Source: Roseobacter sp. SK209-2-6
GTDB lineage: Bacteria > Pseudomonadota > Alphaproteobacteria > Rhodobacterales > Rhodobacteraceae
Length of the DNA: 64,000 bases
NCBI RefSeq assembly: GCF_000169455.1
Contig: NZ_AAYC01000009.1
Span: 72,501-136,500, forward strand
Direction: 5' to 3'
The translations under genes were made by a program, and so were the position numbers. This document shows positions 4,378-9,238 of the stretch, piece after piece (positions within the stretch are counted from its first letter, which is position 1; the number at the start of each line of letters is the position of its first letter). The notes beneath the pieces are model-generated. The model was given only the letters and a program-made list of their open reading frames with translations. It did not search any database and had not been told where the DNA came from.

Positions 4378-4656
4378 ATGGGAATCAAGCGACACAAGCC
4401 CGAAGAGATTGTCACGAAGTTACGGCAGGTTGAGGTGCTTTGCGGCCAAGGGATGCCGCGCGTAGACGCCATTCGACAGGTGCAGATTACAGAACAAACC
4501 TTCTATCGCTGGCGCAAGCAATATGGCGGTATGGGAACCGACCAACTGAAGGAACTAAAGCGACTTCAGAAGGAGAATGACCGGCTGCGTCGGGCAGTTT
4601 CTGATCTGACATTGGACAAGCTCATTCTGTCGGAAGCTGCACGGGGAAACTTCTGA
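4378..4656 (+). CDS. IS3-family transposase OrfA
   Basis: A 92-residue OrfA that supplies the DNA-binding half of the transposase. An N-terminal helix-turn-helix (EEIVTKLRQVEVLCGQG, then ITEQTFYRWRKQYGG) is followed by a leucine-zipper-like helix (LKELKRLQKENDRLRRAV). It ends GNF-stop, the usual end of IS407-group OrfA. The last codons contain G GGA AAC, a canonical -1 slippery heptamer, so part of the translation should continue into orfB as an OrfAB fusion. Its start is 42 bases inside the left inverted repeat. Confidence 0.9.
   Translation: MGIKRHKPEEIVTKLRQVEVLCGQGMPRVDAIRQVQITEQTFYRWRKQYGGMGTDQLKELKRLQKENDRLRRAVSDLTLDKLILSEAARGNF
4644..4650 (+). promoter_or_regulatory. Programmed -1 frameshift site G_GGA_AAC
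   Basis: In the orfA frame the codons read CGG GGA AAC TTC TGA. The heptamer GGGAAAC fits X XXY YYZ. A -1 slip enters the orfB frame, which is open from here without a stop. Confidence 0.75.
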
Positions 4657-4688
4657 GCCCCTCGCGCCGCCGTAACTGCATTGATCAT

Positions 4689-5504
4689 GTGCGACGCCAG
4701 TTCCACGTCTCAGAGCGTCGCGCCTGCCGTGTTCTGGGACAGCACCGTTCCACACAGAGGCGGGTGCCTGTTGGACGTGCTGACGAAGACCGGTTGGTGT
4801 CTGACATGATCGAACTGACACGCCAATATGGTCGATACGGTTACCGTCGGATAGCGGCTCTTCTGAGAGACGCCGGCTGGCAAATCAACGACAAACGTGT
4901 TGAGCGCCTATGGCGGCGTGAGGGGCTGAAAGTTCCAATGAAACAACCGAAGAAAGGACGGCTCTGGCTGAACGACGGGTCGTGTGTTCGACTCCGGCCC
5001 GAATATCGTGACCATGTCTGGTCCTATGACTTCGTGCACCATCGAACGGATGACGGGAAAGCGTTCCGGACACTGAACATTCTGGATGAACACAGCCGGG
5101 AATGCCTGGCGATCCGGGTGAAGAGGCGCTTGAACTCGGCAGAAGTTATTGACGCGCTGACAGATCTTTTCATCCTGCGTGGCGTTCCTGCTTTCATCAG
5201 ATCAGATAATGGCCCAGAGTTCATTGCTCAGGCCGTTCGAGATTGGATCGCAGCGGTCGGTGCCCAAACGGCCTACATTGAACCAGGATCACCTTGGGAG
5301 AACGGATACTGTGAAAGCTTCAACGCGCGCTTCAGAGACGAGCTGCTGAATGGAGAGGTATTTTACAGCCTGCGTGAAGCCCAGATCCTGATTGAACAAT
5401 GGAGAAATCACTACAACACAAAACGGCCGCATAGTGCTCTGGGCTATCGCCCACCGGCTCCGGAAGCCATCGTTCCGGTGGAAACCAGGCCGATCATGCA
5501 CTAA
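4689..5504 (+). CDS. IS3-family transposase OrfB (DDE integrase domain)
   Basis: Catalytic half of the IS transposase, about 271 residues from a GTG at 4689; the frame is open back to about 4651, so it is probably made mainly as an OrfAB frameshift fusion. An HTH_21 region (YGRYGYRRIAALLRDAGW) is followed by the rve integrase core. The DDE residues are visible in WSYDFV, IRSDNGPEF and NGYCESFN. The C-terminus has the family end NTKRPHSALGYRPPAP. No stop or frameshift breaks it, so the element may still be mobile. Confidence 0.9.
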   Translation: MRRQFHVSERRACRVLGQHRSTQRRVPVGRADEDRLVSDMIELTRQYGRYGYRRIAALLRDAGWQINDKRVERLWRREGLKVPMKQPKKGRLWLNDGSCVRLRPEYRDHVWSYDFVHHRTDDGKAFRTLNILDEHSRECLAIRVKRRLNSAEVIDALTDLFILRGVPAFIRSDNGPEFIAQAVRDWIAAVGAQTAYIEPGSPWENGYCESFNARFRDELLNGEVFYSLREAQILIEQWRNHYNTKRPHSALGYRPPAPEAIVPVETRPIMH

Positions 5505-5685
5505 CACTCACACTGGACCACTTCGATGGGGCTGATCAGGCTTCCGTTTGATCCTTTCTCGTTGTTTCAGAATGGTCTGGCCGCGCCCGAAGTAGACATC
5601 AGCCGGGGCGAGATTTTGCAGGCTCTCGTGATAGCGCCGGTGGTTGTACTGATCGACAAAGGCATCGATCTGTTGCCTGAGATCA

Positions 5686-5727
5686 CCCGCTGCCCGGCAG
5701 CACATGCAAAGCATGTGTGAGAGGGGG
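5686..5727 (+). repeat. Small hairpin repeat element, copy A
   Basis: 42 bp: CCCGCTGCCCGGCAG, then a 7-bp perfect hairpin (CACATGC, loop AAA, GCATGTG), then TGAGAGGGGG. It matches copy B at 6398-6441 in both arms but not in the hairpin bases. It interrupts orfB of the decayed IS between the codons for YYLP and GDLRQQ. Confidence 0.75.
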
Positions 5728-6397
5728 CAGGTAGTAGTTTTCCAGCAAGATGCGGCTCTTCAAGGTCTGGTGCCATCGCTCGACCTTCCCCTGAGTTTGC
5801 GGGTGATACGGAGCACCTCGAACATGTTCCATCTGCTGGTCCTCCAGCCAATCGGCCAACTCGCTGGAGAGGTAGCTGGACCCGTTGTCGCTGAGTAGCC
5901 GTGGCTTGTGAACGACTGTCACCCGATCACAACCCGAAGCCTTTAACGCGAGATCCAGCGTGTCGGTCACATCACCCGACTTCATCGTCGTGCAGAGCTT
6001 CCAGGCGATGATGTAGCGGCTGTAGTCATCGAGGATGGTCGACAGATAGAACCAGCCCCAACCGATGACCTTCAGGTAAGTGAAGTCGGTCTGCCAGAGC
6101 TGGTTCGGCCGCGTGGTTTTGTCGTGGAACTCGTCAGCGGCGGACAGAACCACATAGGCTGGGCTGGTAATCAGGTCATAAGACTTGAGGATGCGATAGG
6201 TTGAAGCCTCTGACACAAAATACTTTTCCGTGTCGGTGAAGCGCACAGCCAACTCGTGCGGCGACACATCGCTTTCCTTCAGAGCCAAGTCCTTGATCTT
6301 CTCCCGAACCGGCTCGGGAATGCGGTTCCAGACCCGTGAGGGCTTGGGACTGCGATCCTCAAGCGCCTCGGGGCCGCCCGACAGATACCGGTCATAG

Positions 6398-6441
6398 CCC
6401 GTTGACCGGCAGTCGATTGCTAAGCGATCGATGAGAGGGGG
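6398..6441 (+). repeat. Small hairpin repeat element, copy B
   Basis: 44 bp: CCCGTTGACCGGCAG, then an 8-bp hairpin with one mismatch (TCGATTGC, loop TAA, GCGATCGA), then TGAGAGGGGG. The arms match copy A at 13 of 15 and 10 of 10 positions, while the central stem differs in sequence but keeps pairing. It interrupts orfB between the codons for ATFYR and YDRYL. Confidence 0.75.
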
Positions 6442-6548
6442 CGATAGAAAGTGGCCCTGGGGACACCGAGCTTGTCCAGCGTGCGCTTTGTCGGCAGATG
6501 CCCCCTCCACCAGCCGAATGATTTCGAGTTTCTCGGATGCAGGGTATC

Positions 6549-6929
6549 TCATTCGTCGTCGCCCCCATCTGCGATCATGCTTTCTTTGAGCAACCGCAGT
6601 TCAAGGGCCTGTTCGGCAACCACTTCCTTCAGATCGCGTGCCTCACGGCGCAGATCTTTGACCTCGGTCGATGTCGCTGCACGCGCCGTGTCGCCCGCCA
6701 GACGTTTCTTCCCAGCTTCGAGGAACTCCTTGGACCAGCTGTAGTAGAGGCTCTCAGCGATGCCCTCACGCCGACACAGCTCGGCAATGCTGTCCTCGCC
6801 CTTCAGGCCGTCCAGCACGATCCTGATCTTCTCTTCCGCAAAATACTGCTTGCGGGTGGCTCGGCGGATGTCTTTGACGACCTTCCCGCCGTGGCTCCGC
6901 TTAGTTCCGGGTTTCTGTCTCATCTCCAC
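6549..6929 (-). CDS. IS3-family transposase OrfA (of the decayed element)
   Basis: About 126 residues and uninterrupted. A basic start (KRSHGGKVVKDIRRATRKQ) leads into the HTH_Tnp_1 fold (YFAEEKIRIVLDGLKGEDSI, ELCRREGIAESLYYSWSKEF) and a C-terminal coiled coil. It overlaps the orfB start by 4 bases (ATGA). Since orfB is dead, this DNA-binding protein has no functional partner in the element, though it could still bind related IS ends. Confidence 0.85.
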   Translation of the reverse strand: MEMRQKPGTKRSHGGKVVKDIRRATRKQYFAEEKIRIVLDGLKGEDSIAELCRREGIAESLYYSWSKEFLEAGKKRLAGDTARAATSTEVKDLRREARDLKEVVAEQALELRLLKESMIADGGDDE

Positions 6930-7585: not shown

Positions 7586-8017
7586 ATGAACCGAAGTCTC
7601 AATCTGGCAGGCGCTTGCGCTGCCTTGGCCGTTGCTGGCTATATACTTTTACCTTCAAACATCTCGAATGAGGAGGAGAGCTCCTCAAAGCTTCCAACCG
7701 TCGGCCTGGTTTCCATCCAGGTGCCTCCACTTGAGGGAAATGCTGCTGTTGGGGCGCGAATTTTCGAAAACGCCTGCGCGACTTGTCATGGTTCCAACGC
7801 GAGCGGAATAGAGGGTGCGGGACCTCCGTTAGTCCACAAAATATATAAACCGAGCCATCATTCAGATGAATCCTTTCAAAGAGCGGTTGCAAGAGGAGTC
7901 AAAAGTCATCACTGGCGATTTGGCGACATGCCGAGGATTACTGGCCTGACCCGTGGTGATGTTACCATGGTCATAGCCTATATTCGCCAGGTTCAACGCG
8001 CCAATGGTATCAATTGA
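7586..8017 (+). CDS. c-type cytochrome, membrane anchored
   Basis: 143 residues. An N-terminal hydrophobic segment (residues 5-22) serves as signal anchor, followed by a monohaem cytochrome c domain. The haem motif CATCH spans residues 64-68 and the likely axial Met is M115 in GDMPRI. The mature domain acts in the periplasm. It ends 10 bases before copC, whose ribosome-binding site GAGGA overlaps its stop region, so the two are co-transcribed. The role is probably electron transfer linked to copper metabolism, but the partner is unknown. Confidence 0.85.
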   Translation: MNRSLNLAGACAALAVAGYILLPSNISNEEESSSKLPTVGLVSIQVPPLEGNAAVGARIFENACATCHGSNASGIEGAGPPLVHKIYKPSHHSDESFQRAVARGVKSHHWRFGDMPRITGLTRGDVTMVIAYIRQVQRANGIN

Positions 8018-8027
8018 GGACACCAGA

Positions 8028-8369
8028 ATGAAAATGCTTTTTCCTTTCCTCCTGCTCTCAGCGCTGGCCAGCGGTGTATTCGCGCATTCTCGTGTAGACA
8101 GGACCGTGCCCGAAGATGGTGCAACCATAGCTGCGGCGCCAGATGTGCTTAGTCTCAGCTTCGCCGCTGATATCCGTTTGACTCGGGTAGAATTGACCCA
8201 TCAGGATCAGCACTCCGTCCGGCTGGACCTTGGGGAGCAGAGGAGTTTTGCTCAGGAGTTTTCCATACCTTTCCAGGACATGGGGCAGGGTAGATACCGC
8301 ATTGAATGGCGAGGGCTCGGAGTTGATGGCCATTCGATGCAGGGCGCGTTCTCCTTTACGGTGGATTAA
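8028..8369 (+). CDS. copC: CopC-family periplasmic copper-binding protein
   Basis: 113 residues from the ATG at 8028, chosen for GAGGA seven bases upstream and a clean signal peptide (MKMLFPFLLLSALASGVFA). Cleavage leaves His as the first mature residue (HSRVD). CopC proteins bind Cu(II) by a brace of the N-terminal amino group and His1 with a later Asp-x-His; here that pair is DGH in VDGHSMQG. The fold is the CopC beta-barrel. The stop is followed after two bases by copD, so the pair is translated together and probably passes copper to the CopD membrane protein. Confidence 0.88.
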   Translation: MKMLFPFLLLSALASGVFAHSRVDRTVPEDGATIAAAPDVLSLSFAADIRLTRVELTHQDQHSVRLDLGEQRSFAQEFSIPFQDMGQGRYRIEWRGLGVDGHSMQGAFSFTVD

Positions 8370-8371
8370 AC

Positions 8372-9238
8372 ATGCCTGATATCTGGGCGGTCACCGCGAT
8401 ACTGGTAAAGCTGTTGCTCTATATCTGTATCTTATGGGGAAGTGGGCTTGCGATCATGCGGGTCATTTTCTCTGACTTGGTCTCACCCCTTGCTTCTCTG
8501 ATGACCTGGCACATGCTTTTTTGGGCTGGGGGTATCTTACTGACTTCAGGCCTTGGATTTATGCTGCGAGGTGCCGCCCTTACGGGTAGCGCCGATGGTA
8601 TGATAGACCCTGAAATGCTCGGCCTGTTGTGGCAGACCTCAGCGGGGGATGCTTTGCTCTACCGTTGCATTGGGGCTGTCGTGCTTATTATTGGAACTAT
8701 GCTCCCTCTTGGTGGGGCCTGGGTCTCGCTCTTTGGAGGGCTACTGACGATTTGGTCCTTTGGGCTGATCGGCCATGTGCCGGAACTCGGAGGGGGAGCT
8801 GCGCGAGTGCTCTTGTTTCTACATCTTCTGGGTATTGCTTTTTGGGTTGGTATTCTGGGGCCGTTGCGCAGGCTCGCGCAGCAATCCTTGCACCATCAGA
8901 GATCTGCTAGGCTGGGGCATCGCTTTGGCCAAGTCGCCGCGGTCATTGTCCCTGCGCTGATCTTGGCGGGGCTTCTGATGGCTTGGATTGTTTTGGGGGA
9001 AATCTCGGCATTGTTCACAACCGGCTATGGGCAAACTCTGGTTGCAAAAATGCTACTTGTGGCGGCGCTGCTCACCCTGGCAGCGGTAAACAAGCTACGG
9101 TTCGTTCCTGCGATGTTGGCGGGGGACAAACAGGCTGTGGGTCATTTGACCCGCTCCATCGAAATCGAAACCTGGATTATCCTCACCGTGCTTGCGGCAA
9201 CCGCAATGCTTACCAGTGTTCTGGCGCTTCCAAACTGA
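8372..9238 (+). CDS. copD: CopD-family copper transport membrane protein
   Basis: 288 residues with about eight hydrophobic helices, length normal for CopD. The first (residues 10-32) follows a short N-terminus; the C-terminal half carries the CopD domain with conserved histidines in HLLGIAFWVG and in HVPELGG. It sits in the inner membrane and is thought to import copper delivered by CopC. It starts two bases after the copC stop. The cluster of four genes ends here; the next gene is about 190 bases away with no obvious terminator. Confidence 0.85.
   Translation: MPDIWAVTAILVKLLLYICILWGSGLAIMRVIFSDLVSPLASLMTWHMLFWAGGILLTSGLGFMLRGAALTGSADGMIDPEMLGLLWQTSAGDALLYRCIGAVVLIIGTMLPLGGAWVSLFGGLLTIWSFGLIGHVPELGGGAARVLLFLHLLGIAFWVGILGPLRRLAQQSLHHQRSARLGHRFGQVAAVIVPALILAGLLMAWIVLGEISALFTTGYGQTLVAKMLLVAALLTLAAVNKLRFVPAMLAGDKQAVGHLTRSIEIETWIILTVLAATAMLTSVLALPN

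Follow-up and report, generated by a model that had tools for sequence, protein, structure and literature searches.

The stretch of DNA analysed here (the window) comprises 64,000 nucleotides of Roseobacter sp. SK209-2-6 (contig NZ_AAYC01000009.1, positions 72,501 to 136,500) and carries an insertion sequence (IS) of the IS3 family whose orfB, recognised by a Pfam rve match (E 7.6e-26), is cut by two short inserts, here called copies A and B (Table 1). Read on the minus strand, each consists of CCCTCTC, a hairpin, CTGCCGG and a further six bases. A preliminary description of the window had reported two insertions in one IS3-type orfB, with arms in the same orientation, stems of 7 bp and of 8 positions with one mismatch, and lengths that are not multiples of three, all of which we recover. 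It had, however, placed inserts of about 43 bp at 5686–5727 and 6398–6441, and these borders give way to those in Table 1, which were set from the family alignment and insert-free relatives; the additional outermost C and G are either target bases or border changes. The flanks of copy A are one C shorter than its empty counterpart, and the net gain there is 37 bp. The two-arm pattern has exactly two matches in the window against 0.00 expected (100 shuffles), while the left arm by itself, with up to two mismatches, has two against 1.09 expected, which is not significant. Rfam detects nothing in 5400–6700 at gathering score.

Table 1. Positions of the inserts and of the IS3-family genes around them.
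Feature	Position	Strand	Description
Copy A	5688–5725	minus	38-bp element, CCCTCTC – stem – CTGCCGGGCAGCG; empty counterpart in L021 (96.6% identity)
Copy B	6400–6439	minus	40-bp element, CCCTCTC – stem – CTGCCGGTCAACG; insert at same site in L032
Stem-loop of copy A	5701–5717	minus	7 bp (5701–5707 with 5711–5717), 3-nt loop; from sequence and fold
Stem-loop of copy B	6413–6431	minus	8 positions with one mismatch (6413–6420 with 6424–6431), 3-nt loop; from sequence and fold
Host orfB, IS3-family, cut by both elements	5540–6552 (low end approximate)	minus	Pfam rve and HTH_32; 80 relatives kept
orfA of the same IS, open, without element	6549–6929	minus	Pfam HTH_Tnp_1

The stretch of this IS occurs at full length once in the window's genome. 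Among its kept relatives, a pattern demanding five C's at the left end finds an insert in L032 alone, at the site of copy B, and a looser pattern finds further copies in L031, L081 and L094, all at other sites. Ordinary IS coding sequence is rejected as an account of the inserts, since relatives have empty sites; the prospect, raised in the preliminary description, that intact relatives might carry these segments as normal coding sequence is not borne out.

Both inserts belong to a dispersed family that resides mostly in the bacterial family of the window (Rhodobacterales by the named records). Its layout is CCCTCTC – hairpin – CTGCCGGKCARYG, with a length of 37–45 bp; the flanking arms are constant, and the hairpin, of about 6–11 bp, varies in sequence while keeping its pairing. 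A survey with the pattern CCCCCTCTCN{8,30}CTGCCGG, whose demand for five C's biases the left flank, found 78 carriers among 394 genomes of the window's family versus 18 genomes (20 matches) for the reversed pattern (p = 3e-11); at least 16 of the 78 carriers have only non-palindromic, probably chance, matches, and both this figure and the reversed count refer to the matches listed. The looser pattern gave 8–57 matches in each of eight carrier genomes against 0–18 for the reversed control. A covariance model built from 33 copies and run under stricter filters, which lose weak matches, identified the family in eight of 385 genomes sampled from the class, four in the window's family and four in other families, with 17 matches in the window's genome. 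BLAST of two copies against plasmids returned 68 records for one and 92 for the other, many being near-identical plasmids from a single species. The genera named in these tallies, in part by record taxonomy, are Rhodobacterales, and the plasmids include D. shibae pDSHI04 and the megaplasmid of R. pomeroyi DSS-3. Further copies are thus common in related genomes, a point on which the preliminary description had staked its interpretation, and its reading of constant arms around a pairing-preserving, variable centre as a mobile or structured repeat family holds across many copies and is supported. Because of the two-arm count against shuffles, the spread of the family against the reversed control and the stem compensation described below, chance or decay is rejected. 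No description of the family was found in the literature, including the parts of PMC3733652, PMC3646047, PMC8266576, PMC2800124 and PMC12306157 that were covered, with subscription papers and supplements outside the scope, and the family is apparently undescribed to date.

In the analyses that follow, 154 copies were detected, seven non-palindromic ones were dropped by eye, and 147 were retained. These were drawn from chosen genomes and are a non-random set, in which those within related IS are only partly independent of one another; copy B falls short of the pairing filter and is hence outside the set.

How does the element enter its target? For 143 copies, 60 bases from each side were joined and used as a query, and 86 found an insert-free relative among the collected loci. 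The junction of the relative differed in length by 0 in 62 cases, by +1 in 14, –1 in 6, +2 in 3 and –2 in 1; examples at high identity without change are L031 versus L022 (93.0%) and L284 versus L182 (97.6% and 95.5%). Direct repeats at the borders are no commoner than in shuffles across the 147 copies, which argues against target duplication, and a terminal inverted repeat is almost lacking, with a terminal match of 0–1 base in 140 of 147. The element therefore inserts into coding DNA with no duplication of the target and, in most cases, no net loss of target bases. Empty targets show a weak preference for GATG on the right side. C stands directly to the left of the element in 39 of 49 copies compared with 24 of 49 relatives, in part because C was required in the first search.

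The right end of the element covaries with the target. Its sixth base from the right (e-6) is associated with target position +4 (n = 135; G with G 71 and with C 19, T with G 0 and with C 7; p = 5e-5), and its second base (e-2) with position +2 (T with A 51 and with G 8, C with A 18 and with G 15; p = 0.001), where 72 position pairs were scanned first, the 2×2 tests were picked afterwards and same-site copies were only partly removed. These associations suggest that target choice may be encoded by the element's own end, by analogy with IS608, whose targets follow its guide bases according to the part of PMC8266576 covered.

The stems were analysed in two classes: class II, with 33 distinct 41-mers and a bulged A in nearly all, and class I, with 13 distinct 38-mers and no bulge, after one of 14 (4 pairs) was dropped. 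In class II, 284 of 297 cells are paired (95.6%), 59 being changed on both sides, three on one side and five being G-U; none of 500 shuffles was as high for percentage paired or for double changes, and shifting the partner by 1–3 columns lowered pairing to 29–47%. Of 104 cells in class I, 93.3% are paired and 33 carry changes on both sides, again with 0 of 500 shuffles as high; in both classes the shuffles take no account of relatedness among copies. Altogether, the 147 copies contain 117 distinct stems. Because one-sided changes are rare and G-T intermediates few, the data point to a palindrome that is selected or corrected as DNA. Templating of the stem from the flanking IS was rejected: inner 7-mers occur in their own flanks at 0.198 versus 0.194 in shuffled flanks, which gives no signal. 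One may instead consider a small structured RNA that is made into DNA by target-primed reverse transcription, much like a bacterial short interspersed element (SINE). Such an origin would agree with the missing target duplication, the GATG preference at the right border and the variable left border with its extra C, yet a typical RNA helix would not be dominated by full compensatory swaps (59 double against 3 one-sided changes), and we consider it improbable.

Copies sit mainly in transposase genes of unrelated IS families, in both orientations and often repeatedly in one IS. In a tblastn comparison with transposase seeds, partly named by eye, 52 of the 147 copies adjoin matches at both ends and 51 at one end only, 18 lie within 600 bp of a match and 26 have none, so that 103 directly adjoin transposase coding sequence. 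Inspection by eye places about 15 of the 26 seedless copies outside IS: two are in RHS-type genes and one is in a RelE-type gene, with the remainder intergenic or unclear. The other seedless copies resemble transposase pieces. Among the 26, Pfam supports a transposase at L264, L233 and L297 and, through an HTH match, weakly at L274, but gives no such support at L113. The two longest open reading frames (ORFs) touching each copy were also scanned against Pfam. In a first set of 145 ORFs, each of the 23 matched families was either a transposase family or an HTH domain known from such enzymes. A second set of 141 ORFs matched 29 families, of which the best 25 were mostly transposase, the exceptions among these being two biotin-ligase domains, one RelE, and AAA_25, PhoH and GerE, the last three of which we take for parts of IstB and a transposase HTH. 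Control positions about 4 kb away (62 positions in 31 loci, 123 ORFs) matched 78 families, with no transposase among the best 25. The IS types hit include IS3, IS4/5, IS21, IS66, IS91, IS110, IS481 and IS6 by Pfam, and IS256 and IS1182 by eye. In viral contigs, six of 15 matches with a palindromic centre adjoin a transposase versus none of 37 non-palindromic ones. The other nine palindromic matches have no seed match, and a Pfam scan of ten ORFs neighbouring some of these yielded a single match, to a methylase: a copy in L359 (around 8880) lies beside or inside a C-5 cytosine methylase gene. IS are therefore preferred but not obligatory.

Pairs of copies less than 800 bp apart number 34, and some of them belong to copies of a single IS. 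Of these pairs, 17 are in tandem, 12 have one inverted arrangement and 5 the other. As these counts give no clear orientation bias, a composite element whose ends are paired was rejected. Genome G075 holds an IS with up to five different elements in four places (C1:2248446-2249311, 2463764-, 2617563- and C3:52960-53694; L234, L253 and L280), and such an IS has therefore still multiplied. In genome G377, four intergenic copies (L109, L161, L162 and L163) share nearly one stem and similar GC-rich flanks, and are possibly part of a longer repeat.

Three further explanations bear on this location. The same hairpin might have no preference for IS at all: it would land anywhere, most landings would be purged, and copies within IS would survive and be multiplied and exported. 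The recurrence of IS copies with the same insert within and between genomes (the L198/L206 type, L165 and L243) fits such a sieve, as do the intergenic copies in G377, G208, G000 and G108 and those in RHS- and RelE-type genes, all assigned by eye, the copy in the methylase gene, and the fact that most carrier genomes are listed with one or two matches to the five-C pattern. However, intergenic DNA should tolerate the element too, and only the 15 or so copies mentioned above are clearly outside IS; several different inserts occur within a kilobase of one IS; and repetitive extragenic palindromic (REP) sequences, under the same sieve, are mostly intergenic in the account given in part of PMC8266576. 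We regard a sieve of this kind as a possibility of some weight, albeit one we would not choose. Alternatively, the hairpins could be a device that benefits the host, placed in transposase genes to silence IS. The transposases of at least eight IS types are targeted and 123 of the 147 element lengths shift the reading frame, but the frame bias follows from the preferred lengths of 38 and 41, two or more inserts often occupy one IS, which would be useless once the IS is dead, and insert-bearing IS still exist in several copies (G075 and G000); a silencing function seems very unlikely. Finally, translational bypass or splicing of the segment would leave the transposase functional, for which clean borders might speak, together with an IS3 of Sulfitobacter pontiacus (L407, 1214–2342) in which an element at the orfA/orfB junction is open in the orfB frame of what is still annotated as a transposase. 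Since copies occur in both orientations, 47 of 82 oriented copies being sense and 35 antisense to the gene, and opposite orientations are seen even within some single IS (L103), bypass or splicing is rejected, and we give it practically no credence.

On even terms with our doubts, we favour a non-autonomous mobile DNA hairpin of 37–45 bp that is moved in trans by a separately supplied enzyme and kept in IS. The element would move as a DNA hairpin, in line with its kept palindromes and few G-T intermediates, and its own end would specify the target, in a way resembling the single-strand HUH transposition of IS200/IS605 and REP/RAYT. Movement of this HUH type is the best fit by analogy, because the absence of duplication, the one-sided target, the DNA-like palindromes and the end-target covariation occur together. 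Enrichment in IS could arise in part from the accessibility of transposing IS DNA as a target, and in part from the carriage of IS-borne elements to new replicons and hosts. Single-stranded IS DNA formed in copy-out transposition, hitchhiking, or both may be responsible for the bias. It is conceivable, although we put this forward tentatively and think it rather unlikely, that the element is a dedicated hyperparasite of IS, whose insertion homes on transposing IS DNA of any family, guided by its own end bases, and which spreads by riding broken IS; its target would probably be single-stranded DNA laid bare during the copying of an IS. In this respect the element looks like a parasite of parasites.

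Several observations weigh against a hairpin moved in trans. No mobilising enzyme was identified when Y1 and Y2 gene content was compared over the 394 genomes. The Y1 transposase (PF01797) is present in 11 of 78 pattern carriers versus 27 of 316 others (p = 0.10), or in 10 of 62 once 16 chance carriers are removed (p = 0.055), and it is absent from G067, G101 and G377, each of which has several copies. With 67 of the 78 carriers giving no PF01797 match, a resident RAYT was rejected as a requirement; the enzyme may be rare or encoded elsewhere. Y2, the IS91-type HUH enzyme, occurs in 15 of 78 carriers and is weakly commoner there than in the others (p = 0.017; 0.0045 without the 16 chance carriers). 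We ascribe this to carriers being rich in IS, but the test leaves IS load uncontrolled and Y2 could also be a lead to the enzyme; the excess of both Y1 and Y2 may only reflect IS-rich genomes. Few same-stem copies stand at different sites within one genome, and there is therefore little direct sign of recent jumping. As for the target, 24 of the 86 empty-site comparisons involve one or two bases gained or lost, some against distant relatives; only e-6/+4 stays clear after correction (about 0.004); the covarying end bases form no single simple paired guide; and shared descent of IS copies could inflate both covariations. In class I stems, two of five covariation measures, the number of changed pairs and the number of pair types, do not outperform the shuffles (179 and 257 of 500), and the palindrome's argument for DNA over RNA is an indirect one.

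Half-site searches in eight genomes revealed no longer, gene-bearing relative with the same right end in the part of the matches inspected, which comprised degraded copies, unrelated sequence and a palindromic recombinant. The latter (L336, around 1885–1935, and L337) is a symmetric palindrome with a CTGCC arm at both ends, apparently formed from two inverted copies with removal of the DNA between them.

How does the family relate to known systems? Bacterial miniature inverted-repeat transposable elements (MITEs) are non-autonomous and dispersed, as here, and have terminal inverted repeats and target duplications, whereas our element has almost none of the former and lacks the latter. The core of integron attC sites, GTTRRRY, occurs in none of the 147 copies. 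REPs of the GTAG and CGTC types, with or without RAYT (TnpAREP), share a palindrome of 20–50 nt, a conserved flank, non-autonomy and stem irregularities, here the bulged A of one class. Unlike REPs, which are mainly intergenic, the present element lies mainly in transposase genes, reaches no more than tens of matches in any of the eight genomes counted, contains GTAG in only seven and CGTC in two of 147 copies (either strand), and mostly occurs without a cognate Y1 gene. IS200/IS605 elements likewise have hairpins, no target duplication and a one-sided target specificity, in them tied to bases inside the element and in ours possibly so; ours is a single unit of 37–45 bp without a transposase gene, and its covarying bases do not coincide with the guide position, which the portion of PMC8266576 covered places 5' of the palindrome. 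The hairpin elements of organelles (double-hairpin elements, yeast GC clusters and sponge RHE) are also tiny, dispersed, diverse in sequence and found in genes as well, but they are mostly intergenic in what part of PMC2800124 reports, whereas those described here are bacterial and concentrated in IS.

What is known of small bacterial palindromes comes mainly from intergenic DNA, and this family lies mainly inside transposase genes of many unrelated IS types. Such a location would mean either that a short mobile hairpin can recognise DNA undergoing transposition, or that riding IS suffices to shape where a repeat is found. The family explains one class of broken transposases in these bacteria and marks IS history with clean scars; its copies are present in cultured strains, among them Dinoroseobacter shibae DFL 12 and Ruegeria pomeroyi DSS-3.

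In the window, the broken IS is adjoined by a second, intact-looking IS3-type element (4378–5504), with orfA and orfB on the plus strand according to Pfam. Just past it, 31–36 bases at about 5508–5543 recur at 14 other places in the genome and are probably its right end. Beside the IS cluster, at 7586–9238, lie cytochrome c, CopC-like and CopD-like genes, named by eye.
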